Assembly (NCBI RefSeq): GCF_007655255.1
Contig: NZ_VMYE01000005.1
Span: 1 to 64,000, forward strand
Origin: Extensimonas perlucida
GTDB lineage: Bacteria > Pseudomonadota > Gammaproteobacteria > Burkholderiales > Burkholderiaceae_C
DNA length: 64,000 nt
Direction of reading: 5' to 3'
Below the pieces are notes generated by a model, which had not been told where the DNA came from, ran no database searches, and was given only the letters and a program-made list of their open reading frames with translations. The position numbers and the translations under genes were made by a program. Position 1 is the first letter of the stretch; the number at the start of each line of letters is the position of its first letter. This document shows positions 42,209-49,635 of this stretch, in pieces.

Positions 42209-42937
42209 ATGAGCACCATTTTTCGTAGCAATCAACGCCCCGCCGACGCCATGCGCCCCGTGCGCATCACGCGCAACTACACCATGCACGCCGAAGGCTC
42301 GGTGCTGATCGAACTTGGCAACACGCGCGTGCTGTGCACGGCCTCGGTCGAAGACAAGGTGCCGCCGCACCAGCGCGGCAGCGGCGCGGGCTGGGTCACG
42401 GCCGAATACGGCATGCTGCCGCGCGCCACGCACCAGCGCAACGACCGCGAGGCCGCGCGCGGCAAGCAAAGCGGACGCACGCAGGAGATTCAACGCCTGA
42501 TCGGGCGCTCGCTGCGCGCCGTGTTCGACCTGCGGCTGCTGGGCGAGCGCACCATCACGCTGGACTGCGACGTGATCCAGGCCGACGGCGGCACGCGCAC
42601 TGCGGCGATCACCGGCGCCTGGGTGGCCGCGCAGGACGCCGTGCACCAGCTGCTCGCCAGCGGCAAACTCAGCCAGTCGCCCATCCGCGAAGCCGTGGCC
42701 GCCGTCTCGGTGGGCATGCTGCAGGGCACGCCGCTGCTGGACCTCGAATACGAGGAGGACCAGCGCTGCGACACCGACATGAACGTCGTCATGACCACCG
42801 CGGGTGCCTTCGTCGAACTGCAGGGCACGGCCGAGGGCGCGGCGTTCACGCGCGCGCAGCTCGACCAGATGCTCACGCTGGCCGAAAAAGGCATCCGCGA
42901 GCTGCTCACGCTGCAACAAAAAGCGCTCTACGAGTAA
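42209..42937 (+). CDS. rph: Ribonuclease PH
   Basis: This 242-residue exoribonuclease trims tRNA 3' ends with phosphate. It starts [20 protein letters not shown]. It carries [39 protein letters not shown] and [17 protein letters not shown] (catalytic Asp residues), all family motifs. The length is normal. It is followed by rdgB after a 45-base gap that contains a genus-type repeat. Confidence 0.95.
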
Positions 42938-42981
42938 TAGCTGCTTGCGCTTGATACATAAGGGCTAGAGGCCAATTTGAC
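42936..42981. repeat. Extragenic repeat of the Comamonadaceae type
   Basis: ATAGCTGCTTGCGCTTGATA followed by AAGGGCTAGAGGCCAATTTG. The same scheme recurs at 55601-55652. The inner parts GCGCTTG and its partial complement can pair. I associate the pattern with many Comamonadaceae genomes, from memory. Confidence 0.6.
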
Positions 42982-42982
42982 C

Positions 42983-43588
42983 ATGAAAATCGTGCTGGCA
43001 TCGAACAACCCCGGCAAGCTCGCCGAACTGCAAGCCATGCTCGCGCCGCTGGGCGTGGAGCTGCTGCCCCAGGGCGGGCTCGGCGTGGGCGAGGCCGAGG
43101 AGCCGTACTGCACCTTCGTCGAAAACGCGCTCGCCAAGGCGCGCTTTGCCGCGCAGCACACGGGCCTGCCCGCGCTCGCCGACGACGCGGGGCTGTGTGT
43201 GGACGCCTTCGGCGGCCTGCCGGGCGTGCAAACCGCCTACTACGCCACGCAATTCGGCTACGCAAAGGGCGATGCAAACAACGTGCGCGCGCTGCTCGAA
43301 CAAATGCGCGGCATCAGCAACCGCCGCGCCGCGCTCGTGAGCACGCTCGTGGCCGTGCGCAGCCCGCAAGACCCCGAGCCGCTGATCGCCGTGGGCCGCG
43401 CCGCGGGCGAGATCACCGAAGCGCCGCGCGGCAGCCACGGCTTCGGCTTCGACCCCGTGATGTACCTGCCCGAACTCGGCAAAACCTTTGCCGAGCTGCC
43501 GCCCGAAGCCAAAAACGCGCACAGCCACCGCGGCCAGGCCGCGCGGCAGATGATGCAGCTGCTGCGTGAGCGCTGGCTCGCGGGCTGA
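42983..43588 (+). CDS. rdgB: dITP/XTP pyrophosphatase
   Basis: This 201-residue Ham1/RdgB enzyme removes non-canonical purine triphosphates. It starts MKIVLASNNPGKLAELQ, has EPYCTFVENALAKARFAAQ and LADDAGLCVDAFGGLPG (metal/substrate site), and GFGFDPVMYLPELGKTFAEL with a final SHRGQAARQM. All are characteristic. A TTG start two codons earlier is possible but the ATG fits the family. hemW begins eight bases after its stop. Confidence 0.95.
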   Translation: MKIVLASNNPGKLAELQAMLAPLGVELLPQGGLGVGEAEEPYCTFVENALAKARFAAQHTGLPALADDAGLCVDAFGGLPGVQTAYYATQFGYAKGDANNVRALLEQMRGISNRRAALVSTLVAVRSPQDPEPLIAVGRAAGEITEAPRGSHGFGFDPVMYLPELGKTFAELPPEAKNAHSHRGQAARQMMQLLRERWLAG

Positions 43589-43595
43589 AATCCCC

Positions 43596-44876
43596 ATGCC
43601 CACCATCCCCATCCGCCCGGCTGTGCCCGACGAAAGGCACAGCGCCCATCCCGCCGAACCCACGCCGCCCCCGCCGCGCGACCTGCAGCAGTCCATGCGC
43701 CCGGGCGTGCTGCACTTGCCCAGCCTGCCGCCGCTCGCGCTCTACGTGCACCTGCCCTGGTGCCTGCAAAAATGTCCGTACTGCGACTTCAACTCGCACG
43801 CGCTGACGGCCAGCGGGGCCGAGGCCGAGGCGCTGCAGTCGCGCTACATCGACGCGCTCGTCGCCGACCTCGAAGCCGCGCTGCCGCTCGTGTGGGGGCG
43901 CAAGGTCTTGAGCGTCTTTCTCGGCGGCGGCACGCCCAGCCTGTTCGCGCCCGAGCGCATCGAAGCGCTGCTGGGCGCGATCCGCGCGCGGCTGCCGCTG
44001 CTGCCGGGCTGCGAAATCACGCTCGAAGCCAACCCCGGCAGCTTCGAGCGCGCGCGCTTTCACGCCTTTCGCGCCGCGGGCGTCACGCGCTTGTCGGTGG
44101 GCGTGCAGAGCTTTTCCGACCGCCACTTGCAAGCCCTGGGCCGCGTGCACGACCGCGCGCAGGCCCTGGCCGCCATGCACGAGGCCGCGCAGGCGTTCGA
44201 CCACTTCAACCTAGACCTGATGTACGCCCTGCCGGGCCAGACGCTCGCAGAACTGGAGCAGGACGTGCACACCGCGCTTGCCTTTGCGCCGCCGCACCTC
44301 TCCATCTACCAGCTCACCATCGAGCCCAACACCTACTTTGCCAAGCACCCGCCGCCCGCGCTGCCCGAAGACGACCTGGCCTACGCCATGCTCGACCGCA
44401 TCACCGCGCTCACGCAGGCCGCGGGGCTGCAGCGCTACGAAGTCTCGGCCTACGCGCGCCCCGGCCACGCCTGCGTACACAACGGCAATTACTGGCAGTT
44501 TGGCGACTACCTGGGCCTGGGCGCGGGCGCGCACAGCAAGCTGAGCTTCGCGCACCGCATCGTGCGCCAGGTGCGCTTTCGCGACCCGCAGCGCTACATC
44601 ACGCAGGCGCTCGCGGGCCAGGCCGTGGCCCAGGACGACGAGGTGCGCCGCGCCGACCTGCCCTTCGAATTCATGCTCAACGCGCTGCGCCTGCGCGAAG
44701 GCTTTGCGCTGCAAGACTATTGCGACCGCACGGGCCTGCCGCTTTCGACCATCGCCCCGGCACTGGAGCAGGCCGAACGCCAGGGCCTGATCACCCGCGA
44801 CCTGGGCCACGTGCGCCCGACGGCGCGGGGGTTTGATTTTTTGAACGACTTGCTGGAGTTGTTTTTGCCGGAGTGA
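43596..44876 (+). CDS. hemW: Radical SAM heme chaperone HemW
   Basis: This 426-residue protein has the HemW radical SAM motif CLQKCPYCDF (three Cys plus an extra Cys) near residue 66, then VFLGGGTPSLF, EANPGSF and LSVGVQSF. The C-terminal HemN domain includes GLGAGAHS and the winged end. It resembles HemN but lacks the long N-terminus and residues of the true oxygen-independent coproporphyrinogen oxidase. The Pro-rich first 45 residues are non-conserved. The start at 43596 avoids overlap with rdgB. Confidence 0.9.
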   Translation: MPTIPIRPAVPDERHSAHPAEPTPPPPRDLQQSMRPGVLHLPSLPPLALYVHLPWCLQKCPYCDFNSHALTASGAEAEALQSRYIDALVADLEAALPLVWGRKVLSVFLGGGTPSLFAPERIEALLGAIRARLPLLPGCEITLEANPGSFERARFHAFRAAGVTRLSVGVQSFSDRHLQALGRVHDRAQALAAMHEAAQAFDHFNLDLMYALPGQTLAELEQDVHTALAFAPPHLSIYQLTIEPNTYFAKHPPPALPEDDLAYAMLDRITALTQAAGLQRYEVSAYARPGHACVHNGNYWQFGDYLGLGAGAHSKLSFAHRIVRQVRFRDPQRYITQALAGQAVAQDDEVRRADLPFEFMLNALRLREGFALQDYCDRTGLPLSTIAPALEQAERQGLITRDLGHVRPTARGFDFLNDLLELFLPE

Positions 44877-44939
44877 GCGGGCTGACCTTGATACGGGCGC
44901 GGGTTGGGCTATTTGCCGCTTTAAGCAAAAATGGCCGCT

Positions 44940-44977
44940 GACGCAGAACCAGCGCGCGCAAACAGCTTCTTTTTTAG
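44940..44977. repeat. Short dispersed repeat, type B, copy 1
   Basis: ACGCAGAACCAGCGCGCGCA followed by AACAGCTTCTTTTTT. A close copy stands at 48768-48799 beside the ABC permease gene. Both lie downstream of the convergent ends of core genes. No protein is coded here. Confidence 0.45.
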
Positions 44978-44993
44978 GAGTTTTTTGACACCG

Positions 44994-45389
44994 TTAGTCC
45001 GCAGAGAGCGCGACCGCGATGTCTGGGAACGACCGTAGCACTTTGCCATCCATGGTCACGAGCTTCGTTCCGAGCGTCTTCGCGAGCGCAACGAACTCGC
45101 AATCGTATGCGGAGCATTCACTGTCGCGCACCAGTTCGAGGACGCTACGCGAGTCGACCTCGTATTCGGCGCCCGAGAGCAAATCCTCGGCCTCGCTTTG
45201 GAGCGCATGCGCCTGCTCGAACGTCAGCTTTCCGCGCCTCAGATATCCGGCCAGAATGTTGCGAAATTCGCTGCGCCAAAGCACAGGCGCGGCCCAATCA
45301 GGGTCGTGCTCCATCAGCGCCTCTGCTGCCGCCGTATATTCTCCTGGCAGGTACAGATACGCCAACACGTTTGAATCCACGACCCTCAT
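44994..45389 (-). CDS. vapC: PIN-domain toxin of a VapBC pair
   Basis: This 131-residue protein is a PIN-domain ribonuclease: DSNVLAYLYLPGE gives the first Asp, WRSEFRNILAGYL gives the Glu, SAYDCEFVALAKTLG the third acid and LVTMDGKVLRSFP the last Asp. VapC toxins cut RNA, often initiator tRNA. The start overlaps the antitoxin stop by four bases. It lies just after hemW in a region with mobile DNA, so recent acquisition is plausible. Confidence 0.88.
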   Translation of the reverse strand: MRVVDSNVLAYLYLPGEYTAAAEALMEHDPDWAAPVLWRSEFRNILAGYLRRGKLTFEQAHALQSEAEDLLSGAEYEVDSRSVLELVRDSECSAYDCEFVALAKTLGTKLVTMDGKVLRSFPDIAVALSAD

Positions 45390-45640
45390 GGACGCCCTTG
45401 CTTCTTCAAGGCGTCAATGTCGCGGGCGCGAAACTTCGTGTTTAGTCCCGCCCGCAGTTGGCGCGCACGGGCAAGTCGTTCAGTCGGGCTTATCTTGGTC
45501 GGCATAAGCACAGTCTCAAGGCACACAATGGCTTCACTGTTCAGGCTGCGACGGTGCATTTCTGCCGCGACCTTCAGCTGCTCGTATACGTCGTCCGGAA
45601 TGTTTTTCAATGTCAGCGTTGTAGGCACGGCATTCACCAA
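45386..45640 (-). CDS. vapB: VapB/FitA-like ribbon-helix-helix antitoxin
   Basis: This 84-residue protein starts MVNAVPTTLTLKNIPDDVYE, an Arc/FitA-type ribbon-helix-helix (KNIPDDVYEQLKVAAEMH and RSLNSEAIVCLE), followed by a C-terminal tail that would wrap the toxin. It is upstream of the PIN gene in the usual antitoxin-toxin order with an overlap that couples translation. The RHH domain probably autoregulates the pair. Confidence 0.88.
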   Translation of the reverse strand: MVNAVPTTLTLKNIPDDVYEQLKVAAEMHRRSLNSEAIVCLETVLMPTKISPTERLARARQLRAGLNTKFRARDIDALKKQGRP

Positions 45641-45740
45641 GCATCATGGAACCAAAACGGTTGCATTTTACAGACTGCTCGCTGGCTTGCCGATTTGCGG
45701 GCTGACGTTGCCTGCGCTTTTGGATGGAAGTCCAGGCTCC

Positions 45741-45907
45741 TAGGAGCCTGTCGGACTTTGGAATCGTCGGCTGCAGATGCGCCGCAGCGGCCCATTTTTC
45801 ACCGGTTTCTTGCCCCATAGCACCACTATGGGGCGGCGAATCCGGCAAAAACTGGCCTCGCTGGGCCGCATCTTCGCTTTCGACGCCCAAAGTCCGACAG
45901 GCTCCTA
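45741..45907. repeat. 167-bp palindromic MITE, copy 2 (inverted)
   Basis: The same element as at 34861-35027 in opposite orientation, about 95 percent identical by eye. Ends are TAGGAGCCTGTCGGACTTTG and CAAAGTCCGACAGGCTCCTA; the outer arms are here fully complementary. The interior hairpin is CCCATAGCACCACTATGGG. It stands upstream of the vapB gene. Confidence 0.85.
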
Positions 45908-46026
45908 GGCGCGGCCGGCAACCGCGTCGCCCAGCTTCTGGGATGCCTCATCGACCAGCAGGAAGTGAAATCTTCACCCTATTTCAGGCAGAAATGACGG
46001 GCGTAGCAAGCTACGATTACAAGAGC

Positions 46027-46266
46027 ACCCCCCCCCCGAAAACGCCGCCGCGTGAGCGCGAGCGCGAGCCAGAAGGCGCCGAGGGTGGTGAACGCGAGCA
46101 CCAGCGCGGGGCGCAGGGGTTGGGCGGGCCATTGGTCCATGAACAGGGGGCGCACGAGTTCGACCGCGTTGGTCAGCGGCAGCGCCGCCGAGAGGGTGCG
46201 CACCAGGGGCGGGAGCTGTTCGCGCGGGAAGAACACGCCCGAGAGGAACATCATGGGCGAGAGCAC
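46027..46266 (-). pseudogene. Duplicate of the 3' end of the ABC permease gene
   Basis: About 240 bases match 48805-49044 with a constant offset of 2,778 and only a few differences. It encodes the last 75 or so residues of the permease (MMFLSGVFFPREQLPPLVRT ... ALALTRRRFRG) and then runs on into unrelated codons. At 46267 the match ends where the AATTGGGGTCAGAG motif starts. No start codon or promoter belongs to it, so it is a fragment. Confidence 0.85.
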
Positions 46267-46267
46267 T

Positions 46268-46290
46268 GGAATTGGGGTCAGAGTCCAGTT
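46268..46290. repeat. AATTGGGGTCAGAGTCC motif, copy 1
   Basis: This motif marks the exact end of the permease duplicate. A related copy (AAATTGGGGTCAGACT ... CCAATTTTC) is found at 47330-47346 and 48682-48698, split by the IS element; joined, it is a palindrome. Comparable motifs are, from memory, found near IS200-like/RAYT transposase genes. Confidence 0.5.
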
Positions 46291-46406
46291 ATCGCTGCGC
46301 AGCTTGGGCTGTGGCGTGGTGTTTGCTGGCATATACTGGCCGCAGAGGTGTGCTACAAGTGGGCCTCTCTGTGGAAAAATTGCGTTATACGCCGAATTTT
46401 TGAATG

Positions 46407-46443
46407 AGTATACGCCGCTTGCGGCGTATACTGAACGTTAGCC
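46407..46443. other. Possible recombination-site remnant before the cassette
   Basis: A perfect 12-base inverted repeat (AGTATACGCCGC, TT, GCGGCGTATACT) is followed after five bases by GTTAGCC at 46437-46443. GTTAGCC is the integron core site at which cassettes join (cut after the G). The left half of a full attC is not clear, so this could be an attC/attI relic or the insertion point. Confidence 0.5.
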
Positions 46444-47313
46444 ATGACAACAGCACTGCCATCCGTCGTCATCCTTTCTCGGTCAAGGCAAGCCCGTATG
46501 ACGGAGGAGCTACTGCATGCCCTTCGCCTGATCCCACGAGAGCAACTCACCCAGTGGGGTGCCGACTCAGGAGTTTTGTTCGGTAAGGTTAGTTGGCGCC
46601 GCGCAAAAAACCTTGGCAAGTTGATCAGTCGCCTGAGTCGAGGCACAGTTGATGAAGCAACTGGCGCATATAAGGCACATAAACAAGGTAATCTTAAAGA
46701 GCACGCATCGAGCCGCGTTACAACCGCTAAAGAATCCATCGTATCCACCATCTCTAATGTCACGACATCCGTAAAGATTTTGCAGCAAGCTGTTCGCTCA
46801 AATCCAAAGCAGAACGCACCCGCCCTTGTAGTTTCAACCCTCGCTTTTTTGGCTGCATCTGGTGGCGTAGACGGTGATGGCGGAGTTCCCGACCTCGATC
46901 TGATTGCAGGCATCGATGCGCACCGATCAATATTCACTCATTCGATTCTCTCTGGCGCGGCAATCGAAACTTTCTTATTGGCCTCAGCGTCGTTTATCGG
47001 GATTGCCCATTCGTACTTGCCAGAAACGCACGATCCCATATGGGACGCTATTGCTACGCACAAGGATCAGTACGTTAGGGCCACTTCGCAAGGCGCCTCT
47101 CTGGGTATTGCTTATCACCTGTTTATTGACAGCGCGATCGAGCCAGGCGCTTATCACGATCTTCCTGGAACGCACTCTATCGAGGCGCATCAGGCTGTGG
47201 CCGGCGCGAATGCAATTGCCGAGGGTATTGATGTCAAACATAAAGCGCCAAAGCGTCATGGCTAACAATTCATTCAAGCGGAAACCGCTTCGCGGTTCGG
47301 CTTAATTCAGGCG
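46438..47313 (+). mobile_element. Single integron gene cassette
   Basis: The unit runs from TTAGCC at 46438 to the G of the GTTATGCC site at 47313, 876 bases. It holds one gene starting two codons after the junction and an attC site that contains the gene's stop codon, the classical cassette layout. No integron integrase gene is present in the window, so the cassette is solitary. Confidence 0.75.
46444..47265 (+). CDS. Cassette gene: YdjM-like membrane-associated protein (273 aa)
   Basis: The protein starts MTTALPSVVILSRSRQARMT just after the cassette junction and stops within the attC. The first 130 residues have no motif. Residues about 145-240 show DLDLIAGIDAHRSIFTHSIL, a hydrophobic stretch (AIETFLLASASFIGIAHS) and LGIAYHLFIDSAIEPGAYHD. 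The D-D-HR-THS pattern with a later YH-D is reminiscent of YdjM/YbcI-type metal-dependent inner-membrane hydrolases, but the match is partial. Base composition is far lower in GC than that of its surroundings, as usual for cassettes. The function is unknown. Confidence 0.7.
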   Translation: MTTALPSVVILSRSRQARMTEELLHALRLIPREQLTQWGADSGVLFGKVSWRRAKNLGKLISRLSRGTVDEATGAYKAHKQGNLKEHASSRVTTAKESIVSTISNVTTSVKILQQAVRSNPKQNAPALVVSTLAFLAASGGVDGDGGVPDLDLIAGIDAHRSIFTHSILSGAAIETFLLASASFIGIAHSYLPETHDPIWDAIATHKDQYVRATSQGASLGIAYHLFIDSAIEPGAYHDLPGTHSIEAHQAVAGANAIAEGIDVKHKAPKRHG

Positions 47314-47319
47314 TTATGC
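47260..47319. other. attC site of the cassette
   Basis: Sixty bases from GGCTAAC (47260-47266) to GTTATGC (47313-47319). Inner parts AATTCATTCAAGC and GGCTTAATTCAGGCG are the paired L boxes, and CCGCTTCGCGG-like sequence forms the hairpin tip. The sequence is close to the attC that accompanies aadA-type resistance cassettes, as I remember it. The two extrahelical bases would come from the L box mismatch. Confidence 0.85.
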
Positions 47320-47346
47320 CTAAAAAGTAAAAATTGGGGTCAGACT

Positions 47347-48681
47347 CTGAGGTTTCCCCACAAATTCACTCTACAAAACACGCTTGCTGGGCCTGGCGGC
47401 GAAGCAATTCCAAAGCTTGTTCGAGCCGAAGTTTGCGCAGCCATGACTCCCCCGCATCGATGATCCGACGAGCCAAGGTCAACGTGGAAATTTCCTTGTG
47501 CTCGCGCTTGTGACGGCCAACGCTCTGGAAATACCGCTGCATCTGGCGCTGTTGCGCACACTCACCGATCAGACGCAGCAACCACCCCGCCAGATGTCCG
47601 ATCAGCAGCAGTATCTCCAGCCGCCTGCTCGAGCGTGAGCGTGTGGCGCTCAGGCCCAGCCCCAAGCGCTCATTCTTGAGGTCGCGGAAAGATTGCTCGA
47701 TACGCATCCTCTGCGCATACAGCCCCGCAATCGCTTGCGCACTCAAATGCGCAAGGCTTGGCGAGCACGCCAGCAGCCACGGCTCACGGCCTCTGCGGGC
47801 GGCCTTGAGCGAGCTGCGACAACGCGAGCGCTGCCCCTTGTGCGTGCGCCGCGTGCGCCCCTTGGGCACGCGCTGCAGCAGAATCAGCCGACAGGCCACG
47901 GGGTGGCTGCGCACGTAATACGCATCGGCAAACGCTTGGGCATCCGAAGTGGCTGCAGGGTACAGCTGTGTGCAGCGCTGCCAGTGCCCCGTGCCAATGC
48001 GCACCATGTCTTTGCCGCGAATGCGCCCTACCCAGTGCCAGCGGTGTTGCGCCACCAACTCGAACCAGGTGGAGCGAAAGCCAGCATCCGTCATGATGGT
48101 GGGCGCATGGCCTGCTGGCAGCATGCTGGCCAGGCGCTGCAGGAAATGGCGGTGCACCTCGAGGTTGCCGTACTTGTGCTGCGGGTGGATTTCTTCATAC
48201 AGTGTGACGCTGCGCCCCTCTACGGCAACGCTGGCGCGCAGCAAGTGCCAACGCTGATCGGGCGTGACGTCTGACCAGTCGATCACCACCAGCAGTTGTC
48301 CGACCTGTGTCAACCATTGCGCCGCCACTTGCCGATAGATGTCCTGGCGGGCGCCATGCAGCGCATCGTTGCCCAGCAGACGGTCGATTCGTTTGATGCG
48401 ATGGCGCATCGCCGTGCTCGGCTCCAGAGCGCGGGCCAGCTGGCTCAGGCTCAGGTGGGCTCCCCGCAAAGCACTGGATACCGCCGCCTTGACTGCTTGG
48501 GCTAGCTTGGCATGCAAACGCGACAGGCATTTTCCCAGCATTTGGTCTACGAGCAGGTTCGTGTGCATTCGAAGCCCTCCATCGGCGTTTGTGCGTCGGG
48601 ATGAAGAATCAATCCATGTCTCGCAGGCTAAATGGCATCTAACTGCTTGAATTTAAACACAAATTTGTGGGGATACCTCAG
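47347..48681. mobile_element. IS10-like insertion sequence (IS4 superfamily), complete
   Basis: This 1,335-base element has ends CTGAGGTTTCCCCACAAATT (left) and, read inward, CTGAGGTATCCCCACAAATT (right). The CTGAG...CCCC layout matches IS10 ends. It is bracketed by the direct repeat GGTCAGACT at 47338-47346 and 48682-48690, the 9-bp target duplication expected of the IS10/IS50 group. The single transposase gene is intact, so the insertion is probably recent and competent. Confidence 0.9.
47366..48568 (-). CDS. IS10-group DDE transposase
   Basis: This 400-residue protein fits the IS4-family DDE fold: VVIDWSDVT holds the first Asp (about residue 97), IMTDAGFRS the second (about 160), and YAQRMRIEQSFRDLKNERLG is the Y-(2)-R-(3)-E-(6)-K signature with the catalytic Glu. 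Charged C-terminal helices follow. The frame is unbroken. It performs cut-and-paste transposition at the element's ends. The protein fills almost the whole IS. Confidence 0.92.
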   Translation of the reverse strand: MHTNLLVDQMLGKCLSRLHAKLAQAVKAAVSSALRGAHLSLSQLARALEPSTAMRHRIKRIDRLLGNDALHGARQDIYRQVAAQWLTQVGQLLVVIDWSDVTPDQRWHLLRASVAVEGRSVTLYEEIHPQHKYGNLEVHRHFLQRLASMLPAGHAPTIMTDAGFRSTWFELVAQHRWHWVGRIRGKDMVRIGTGHWQRCTQLYPAATSDAQAFADAYYVRSHPVACRLILLQRVPKGRTRRTHKGQRSRCRSSLKAARRGREPWLLACSPSLAHLSAQAIAGLYAQRMRIEQSFRDLKNERLGLGLSATRSRSSRRLEILLLIGHLAGWLLRLIGECAQQRQMQRYFQSVGRHKREHKEISTLTLARRIIDAGESWLRKLRLEQALELLRRQAQQACFVE

Positions 48682-48767
48682 GGTCAGACTCCAATTTTCG
48701 GGCGCTTGCGATAGAACAGAGGGCGTGTTGCGCCCGACGACGCCCATACTCAAAAACCCCCTTCCAC

Positions 48768-48807: not shown

Positions 48808-49635
48808 TCACCCCCGAAAACGCCGCCGCGTGAGCGCGAGCGCGAGCCAGAAGGCGCCGAGGGTGGTGAGCGCGAGCACCAGCGCGGGGCGCAGGGGTTG
48901 GGCGGGCCATTGATCCATGAACAGGGGGCGCACGAGTTCGACCGCGTTCGTCAGCGGCAGCGCCGCCGAGAGGGTGCGCACCAGGGGCGGGAGCTGTTCG
49001 CGCGGGAAGAACACGCCCGAGAGGAACATCATGGGCGTGAGCACCAGCGTGAAGTAGTAGGTGAAAAAATCGTAGCTCTTGGCGAGCGCATTGAAGATCA
49101 GCGCCAGGCTCGAAAACATCAGCCCCACGGCCAGCAGCACCAGCCAGGCCACGAGCAGCTTGGGGCTGTGGCTGATGCCCAGCGCGAGCATCACGCCCAT
49201 GATCGCCGTGACCGTGAAGATCGACTTGAACGCGGCCCAGAGCATCTCGGCCAGCACCACGTCGTCCAGGCGCAGGGGCGCGTTCAGGATGCCCTCCCAG
49301 GTTTTTTGCACGTGCATGCGCGAAAAGGCCGAATACAGCGCCTCGAAGCTCGCGGCGTTCATCGCGCTCATGCAGATCGAGCCGCTCGCAAGGAACAGGA
49401 TGTAGGGCACCTGCCGTCCGCCGCCCACGTCGATCTGCCCGACCAGTGCCCCCATGCCGTAGCCAAAGGCGACGAGCCACATCAGCGGCTCGGCGATGTT
49501 GCCCAGCAGGCTGGGCACGGCCAGCTTGCGCCAGACGAGCAGATTGCGCAAGAACACCGGCCACCAGCGCAGCGACAGGCTGGGCGGGCGCCACAGCGAT
49601 GGGGCGGGCGGGGGTGTTTGGAGACTTTGGGTCAT
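48808..49635 (-). CDS. ABC-2 type transporter permease, NodJ family
   Basis: This 275-residue membrane protein has about six hydrophobic segments. PYILFLASGSICMSAMNAAS, TWEGILNAPLRLDDVVLAE and TPMMFLSGVFFPREQLPPLV are NodJ/DrrB-type patterns. Such permeases pair with a NodI-like ATPase for export of lipid-linked or hydrophobic molecules. No ATPase gene is adjacent on this strand: the upstream neighbour is the opposing purT. The ATPase must be elsewhere. Its 3' end is the source of the fragment at 46027. Confidence 0.88.
   Translation of the reverse strand: MTQSLQTPPPAPSLWRPPSLSLRWWPVFLRNLLVWRKLAVPSLLGNIAEPLMWLVAFGYGMGALVGQIDVGGGRQVPYILFLASGSICMSAMNAASFEALYSAFSRMHVQKTWEGILNAPLRLDDVVLAEMLWAAFKSIFTVTAIMGVMLALGISHSPKLLVAWLVLLAVGLMFSSLALIFNALAKSYDFFTYYFTLVLTPMMFLSGVFFPREQLPPLVRTLSAALPLTNAVELVRPLFMDQWPAQPLRPALVLALTTLGAFWLALALTRRRFRG

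Follow-up and report, generated by a model that had tools for sequence, protein, structure and literature searches.

A lone mobile integron gene cassette stands in the window, that is, in the whole stretch of 64,000 nucleotides analysed here, at an attI without an integrase gene beside it. The locus is very probably what is left of a sedentary chromosomal integron. This reading is based on the similarity of the docking site to attI sites, the anatomy of the cassette, a left side that is broken in two species, and the different cassettes that these species carry at the same crossover. The confidence stated applies to the remnant itself and excludes the separately graded step in which the class 1 integrase IntI1 acts in trans. 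A deletion would have taken intI, sparing its putative first codons, attI as the docking site, and the side with the cassette (Table 1). After this loss, at least one cassette would have been precisely excised or inserted at attI by an integrase acting in trans.

Table 1. Features of the cassette locus and its flanks (window positions; a slash marks the crossover)
Feature	Position	Strand	Remarks
3' fragment copied from ABC-2 permease gene	46033-46266	-	98% identical direct repeat
Left copy of palindromic repeat AATTGGGGTCAGANTCCAATT	46270-46290	.	at break point of lost intI
Putative 5' stub of lost intI	46291-46332	-	MPANTTPQPKL..., start codon at 46332
Orphan chromosomal-integron attI	46385-46437	+	similarity to attI of six intI-linked loci; motif
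attI inverted repeat AGTATACGCCG/CGGCGTATACT	within 46407-46432		crossover after G46437
Cassette	46438-47313	+	876 bp
Cassette gene, YdjM-like putative membrane-associated hydrolase (weak assignment)	46444-47265	+	273 aa; TAA at 47263-47265, inside attC; two relatives
attC, aadA/fosE type	47260-47319	+	60 bases; R'' GGCTAAC at 47260-47266, R' G/TTATGC at 47313-47319
Residue right of attC TTATGCCTAAAAAGTA	47314-47329	+	unlike the 203-bp piece there in G821
Right copy of palindromic repeat	47330-47347		contains the IS4-family element
Left target-site duplication of IS, 11 bp, GGGTCAGACTC	47337-47347	.	right copy 48681-48691
IS4-family element	47348-48680	-	transposase 47366-48568; NF033591, 278 bits
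Intact ABC-2 permease copy	48808-49635

The limits of the cassette were read directly from the window sequence. The crossover lies between 46437 and 46438 (...GAACG/TTAGCCATG...), where G/TTAGCC opens the cassette with a 5' boundary of the form G/TTRRRY and the crossover G is 46437. GGCTAA in R'' is exactly complementary to TTAGCC at the cassette start, as is expected of a once-circular cassette that closed at TTAGCC. The attC has paired R''/R' and L''/L' boxes, and its L boxes are identical or nearly so to those of eight plasmid attC sites. A covariance model built from nine sites, eight from plasmid records and the window site itself, scored the window attC at 83.6 bits and the next best site in the window at 10.7 bits. 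Because the window site helped to build this model, the independent test is blastn of the attC: 3611 plasmid records match the query, the attC end is covered in all of the best 40 of 3611, and the site matches class 1 cassettes such as fosE, aadA and catB8. The sequence-only reading had described a mobile cassette with a GTTAGCC junction, a stop codon within attC and a 60-base attC, all of which can be read in the sequence, and the blastn matches to aadA/fosE-type plasmid cassettes bear out its comparison of the attC with that of aadA cassettes. Folding of the bottom strand, proposed there as a check, gave z -1.28, with 25 of 200 shuffles equally good; the fold is unremarkable and weak evidence alone, and the site is supported by blastn instead. 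The low GC ascribed to the cassette gene was likewise confirmed (GC3 49.8% vs 89-91% in three neighbouring genes), the cassette as a whole having 52.3% GC vs 62.6% in the window. The extent of 46407-47319 originally given is corrected to 46438-47313 for the mobile unit; its first position, 46407, is where the inverted repeat of attI opens.

The cassette was matched in its own genome solely at its own place, and a search of the whole genome with the covariance model found no second aadA-type attC at E<=10. The idea of an upstream attC remnant was rejected, as the model gives no match upstream. Other attC types were sought at the locus only, with a rough finder that did not recover the window site itself: at a high threshold it missed both this site and that of the sister species G821, and when relaxed it found the G821 site and still missed that of the window.

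The docking site left of the cassette resembles the attI of integrons that retain their integrase gene. In a BLAST comparison of 46267-46443 with 22 intI loci, the best match was to L125 (87% of 55 nt, E 5e-15), followed by L112 (83% of 58 nt, E 7e-13) and L124 (82% of 60 nt, E 3e-11), with weaker matches to L127 (83% of 36 nt, 2e-6), L120 (81% of 37 nt, 3e-5) and L109 (75% of 56 nt, 3e-5). All six matches lie just upstream of the intI frame and in attI-to-cassette orientation; three further matches of the left flank were at chance level or within a coding start (E 0.05-0.7). The motif derived from the matches consists of AGTATRCNCC, a gap, GGNGYATACT, two bases and ACG. With up to three substitutions allowed, it occurs upstream of intI in seven of the 22 loci in which an intI frame was found (L109, L112, L120, L124, L125, L126 and L127); none of 440 mononucleotide shuffles contains it. 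A scan of both strands of 29 loci (L106-L134) returned the same seven, the motif being absent from the seven loci without an intI frame. Its specificity is strengthened by a background scan of 602,227 other bases (overlapping loci counted repeatedly), in which all 26 matches represent the window or the G821 site. The motif is not universal, even within the window's own family, f1, where five of eight non-IntI1 intI loci carry it (L112, L120, L125, L126 and L127) and L143, L145 and L146 do not; this count makes it less general, and the loci are mostly the best-scoring intI matches and not a random sample.

Pairing between the arms of the inverted repeat is kept through two-sided changes at four of 11 pairs (at least four in 15 of 500 shuffles), with seven cells of two-sided change, a number that 0 of 500 shuffles reach. 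The covariation score was equalled in four of 500 shuffles, and sliding the partners destroys the pairing; a count of further pair types was no better than in shuffles (430 of 500 as high). A hairpin and a dimer-binding site would look alike in such an analysis, and a role of the repeat as operator or hairpin is therefore putative. The AGTATRCNCC/GGNGYATACT repeat is conserved, with compensating changes, at the attI of some chromosomal integrons of the family and order. Close copies of the window site are rare: none of 398 other genomes of the order contains a 35-base left-flank pattern at up to three mismatches, and relatives were recovered by the looser comparison only. The left flank has no plasmid match, and its repeat occurs in no viral contig. 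Compared with attI1, the docking site gave only chance-level matches (E 3.9) to L106 and L135, the loci with the class 1 integron of G821, and none was listed to L017. The cassette boundary thus carries no attI1, and what lies beside the first cassette is an attI, as in a sedentary chromosomal integron.

The integrase gene that should adjoin this attI is missing except for a putative 5' stub, in keeping with the earlier description of a chromosomal setting without an integrase beside the cassette. The place expected for the body of intI is occupied by the permease fragment. The putative intI ATG (46332, minus strand) is 105 nt away from the crossover G; the first intI ATG of six integron loci is at 92-105 nt, and that of one further locus at 72 nt. 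The predicted N-terminus reads PKL, like that of intact IntI (PKLLDQ), before the frame enters the palindromic repeat and the permease fragment. With only about 11 residues the stub is short, and its assignment to a lost intI is accordingly putative. Nine family-relative stretches around the permease have only the permease (in two of them also the next gene) in common with the window.

The genus comparison comprised the genomes of two other species, G821 and G822. G821 aligns to 42541-46445 (96.0%) and resumes at 48681 (98.7%). Its left side contains the same permease fragment with the same junction, repeat, stub and attI, with three mismatches in 198 positions. At the same G/TT crossover, however, G821 carries a different cassette of 609 bp, which starts with TTGGGC and has an attC with R'' GCCCAAC, matching its own start, and R' GTTATGC. 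The 166-aa product of this cassette matches no Pfam family at E<=10 and one relative, at 32% identity, in a Vibrio record. To the right of the G821 cassette follow a 203-bp piece starting with TTATGC and then the palindromic repeat without an IS. This 203-bp piece (L103, contig C47) contains a 59-aa ORF and looks like a truncated second cassette. The window cassette had no match in G821 or G822, either in the compared stretches or among the candidates scored (40 of 336 and 40 of 298), which makes its absence from these genomes a weak observation. G822 has neither the copied permease fragment nor the attI in the compared stretches, and no intI at E<=1e-60. Since the break is common to the window and G821, intI would have been lost before these species split. 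The cassettes differ, which points to recombination at attI after the split, barring a swap of entire arrays through homologous recombination; some integrase was thus probably active once the local intI had gone.

On the right, the IS4-family element lies 34 bp from the cassette. It has its own target duplication inside the palindromic repeat, and at the same place G821 has an uninterrupted AAAATTGGGGTCAGACTCCAATTTT and no IS4-family element. The IS is thus later than the shared attI, incidental, and not part of the cassette; a cassette borne by this IS was considered and rejected on the same observations. The palindrome AATTGGGGTCAGANTCCAATT is dispersed, with 57 genome sites within one mismatch of its core vs one for a reversed-pattern control, and it sometimes occurs in close pairs, as at 46270-46290 and 47330-47347. 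Another repetitive feature, at 45736-45912, is an MITE-like element of about 175 bp with 26-bp inverted ends; its copies make up most of the matches listed for a query that contains it, which number 79-85 per genome in all three genus genomes. A gene pair coding for a PIN-domain toxin and an FitA-like ribbon-helix-helix antitoxin (44994-45640) also lies beside the locus.

Two origins had been offered in the sequence-only reading, the last piece of a lost array or insertion at a secondary site, and the attI and stub favour the former. Loot et al. reportedly described in 2024 the insertion of cassettes at attG or secondary sites. Placement by IntI1 at such a chance site in the chromosome was at first favoured because the genome contains intI1, and it was dropped after the attI match, as the docking site does not conform to the definition of an attG as neither attI nor attC. 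A lone chromosomal cassette is what this route would produce, secondary-site insertion is known (according to the available part of PMC10127599), and the empty-site GTTAT would fit the GWTMW consensus cited in the available part of PMC4618277. Against these points, the site is an attI by both sequence and position, G821 carries a different cassette joined at this very base, and the same attI stands next to intI in relatives, which argues strongly against chance siting and leaves this explanation very improbable.

How the two species came to hold different cassettes can be accounted for in other ways. A longer ancestral array may have survived the loss of intI, each species then losing different cassettes by precise excision. 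The arrangement in G821, one cassette plus the 203-bp piece starting with TTATGC, and that in the window, a different cassette followed by a short TTATGCC residue, would agree with this, whereas no cassette is common to the two places compared. We regard such an array as a serious contender, if on balance somewhat doubtful; it would still call for an integrase acting in trans once intI was gone, and so belongs with the remnant reading as a variant. Unlikely, by comparison, is that homologous recombination between the flanks imported an array from another, unsampled strain, no integrase having acted once intI was lost. Flanks of 96-99% identity suffice for such an exchange, but both arrays begin at the exact crossover base behind the same attI and the same broken left side, and two different cassettes would still have had to join this attI, before or after intI was lost.

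If cassettes were exchanged at the remnant attI, the likeliest helper would be the IntI1 encoded by class 1 integrons of the Tn402 type; the two genomes carry nearly the same intI1 gene. The search for intI elsewhere in the genome, which had been recommended from the sequence, led to contig C16, where intI1 (493 bits) is the one genome match above the TIGR02249 cut-off; an IS3-family element, with a transposase scoring 196 bits, splits this gene. In G821, intI1 on contig C9 is an open frame of 337 aa. The genes of the two genomes are 100% identical over 1031 nt, comprising most of the gene and 100 nt beyond its end, and 98.7% identical over a further 233 nt at the other end. Both copies reside in class 1 integrons with tni-like genes of the Tn402 type (names from matching plasmid annotations), on contigs separate from the cassette in these draft assemblies. 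The presence of intI1 in such integrons in both genomes makes IntI1 the natural candidate for action in trans. Like a class 1 integron, the window locus has the attC type of resistance cassettes, with intI1 elsewhere in both genomes; it differs in that its docking site is not attI1. The class 1 integron on C16 (L017, 4776-8415) consists of the interrupted intI1, attI1 and one cassette, followed by the tni-like genes; this cassette carries a SnoaL/DUF4440-type gene, and its R'' CGCCGAAC matches its TTCGGCG start. Beside the open intI1 of G821 (L135, 14759-15088) lies a gene for a QacE-type SMR efflux protein (200.8 bits, cut-off 185).

The substrate of integron integrases is attC in the form of its folded bottom strand, which they join to attI at G/TT, so that a circular cassette is inserted or released. 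IntI1 prefers attI1 over foreign attI sites, a preference that speaks against its action here. An orphan attI whose own integrase was deleted might persist as a live exchange port, at which class 1 IntI1 from mobile elements loads and unloads cassettes; this proposal is tentative, and we place it just short of an even balance. If it is true, chromosomal integrons that are themselves dead would stay in circulation through mobile integrons, which would also take cassettes from them. The attC type cannot settle whether IntI1 acted, because a chromosomal array with an aadA-type attC is present in G987; for the same reason, the aadA-type attC was rejected as proof of a class 1 origin.

The gene carried by the cassette has relatives in two of 398 other genomes of the order, none in 397 other genomes drawn from the phylum, and none in plasmids, phages or viral contigs. 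A search of genome contigs gave no match with a single protein query, and an alignment query gave two loci, which are the same two relatives. These share about 41% identity with the window protein and occur in metagenome-assembled genomes titled Hydrogenophilales and Gammaproteobacteria; beside neither of them is there an aadA-type attC. Invariant in all three proteins are H160 R161, F164 T165 H166 S167, Y224 H225, Y237 H238 D239 and E247 A248 H249. We take the motifs HR..FTHS, YH, YHDLP and EAH to suggest a YdjM-like metal-dependent membrane-associated hydrolase. The designation YdjM-like, already made from the letters of the sequence, is based on the conserved HR..FTHS residues and on a sub-threshold Pfam match of YdjM (PF04307) to one of the two homologs (E 0.0076, 16.2 bits vs a cut-off of 29); the window protein itself matches neither a Pfam nor an NCBIfam family at E<=1. 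The cargo is thus probably a YdjM-like membrane-associated hydrolase, the assignment being weak. PADLOC gave no match for the protein, which hit one PHROG at E 0.074 and had a best solved structure at E 0.18; its AlphaFold2 model is poor (mean pLDDT 51.9). Expression of the gene is doubtful, as no sigma-70-like promoter was found in 46200-47400 (0 found, 1.1 expected).

The closest known systems include chromosomal integrons of family f1 (L112, L120, L125, L126 and L127), with which the remnant shares the AGTATRCNCC inverted-repeat attI at about 70-105 nt from the intI start; it differs from them in that intI is deleted and one cassette is left. The aadA-type attC is also in line with chromosomal integrons, as G987 illustrates. 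In the terms of IntegronFinder, an attC-bearing cassette without a neighbouring integrase is a CALIN or single-attC element, and the window locus is of this kind. Unlike a CALIN, it still has an attI that can be recognised and, putatively, a stub of intI, and default reporting of CALINs needs two attC (available part of PMC9024848), whereas one of the aadA type was found in the window genome. Loss of the integrase is given as the origin of CALINs (PMC11389934), which are also described as mobilisable in trans (PMC11389934, PMC12444791), each in the part of these papers available. Secondary and attG sites, CALINs and trans mobilisation are treated across the available parts of PMC12901181, PMC10127599, PMC9024848, PMC12444791, PMC4618277, PMC8352920 and PMC11389934, with a citation in PMC11023631. 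Among the papers listed in literature searches that covered titles and abstract openings, with few subscription papers, none points to the window locus or to the attI inverted repeat.

Natural cases in which integrase loss can be ordered before cassette exchange would be useful tests of CALIN mobilisation. Here, the shared deletion would date the loss, two cassettes at one crossover base point to later exchange, and a near-identical intI1 is present in both genomes. The attI inverted repeat may further serve as a sequence tag for orphan attI sites that integrase or attC scans miss. An aadA/fosE-type attC was also observed at 2501-2573 of L032, from the Desulforapulum plasmid pHRM2a, between a hypothetical gene and a GIY-YIG nuclease gene, where it may mark another lone cassette.
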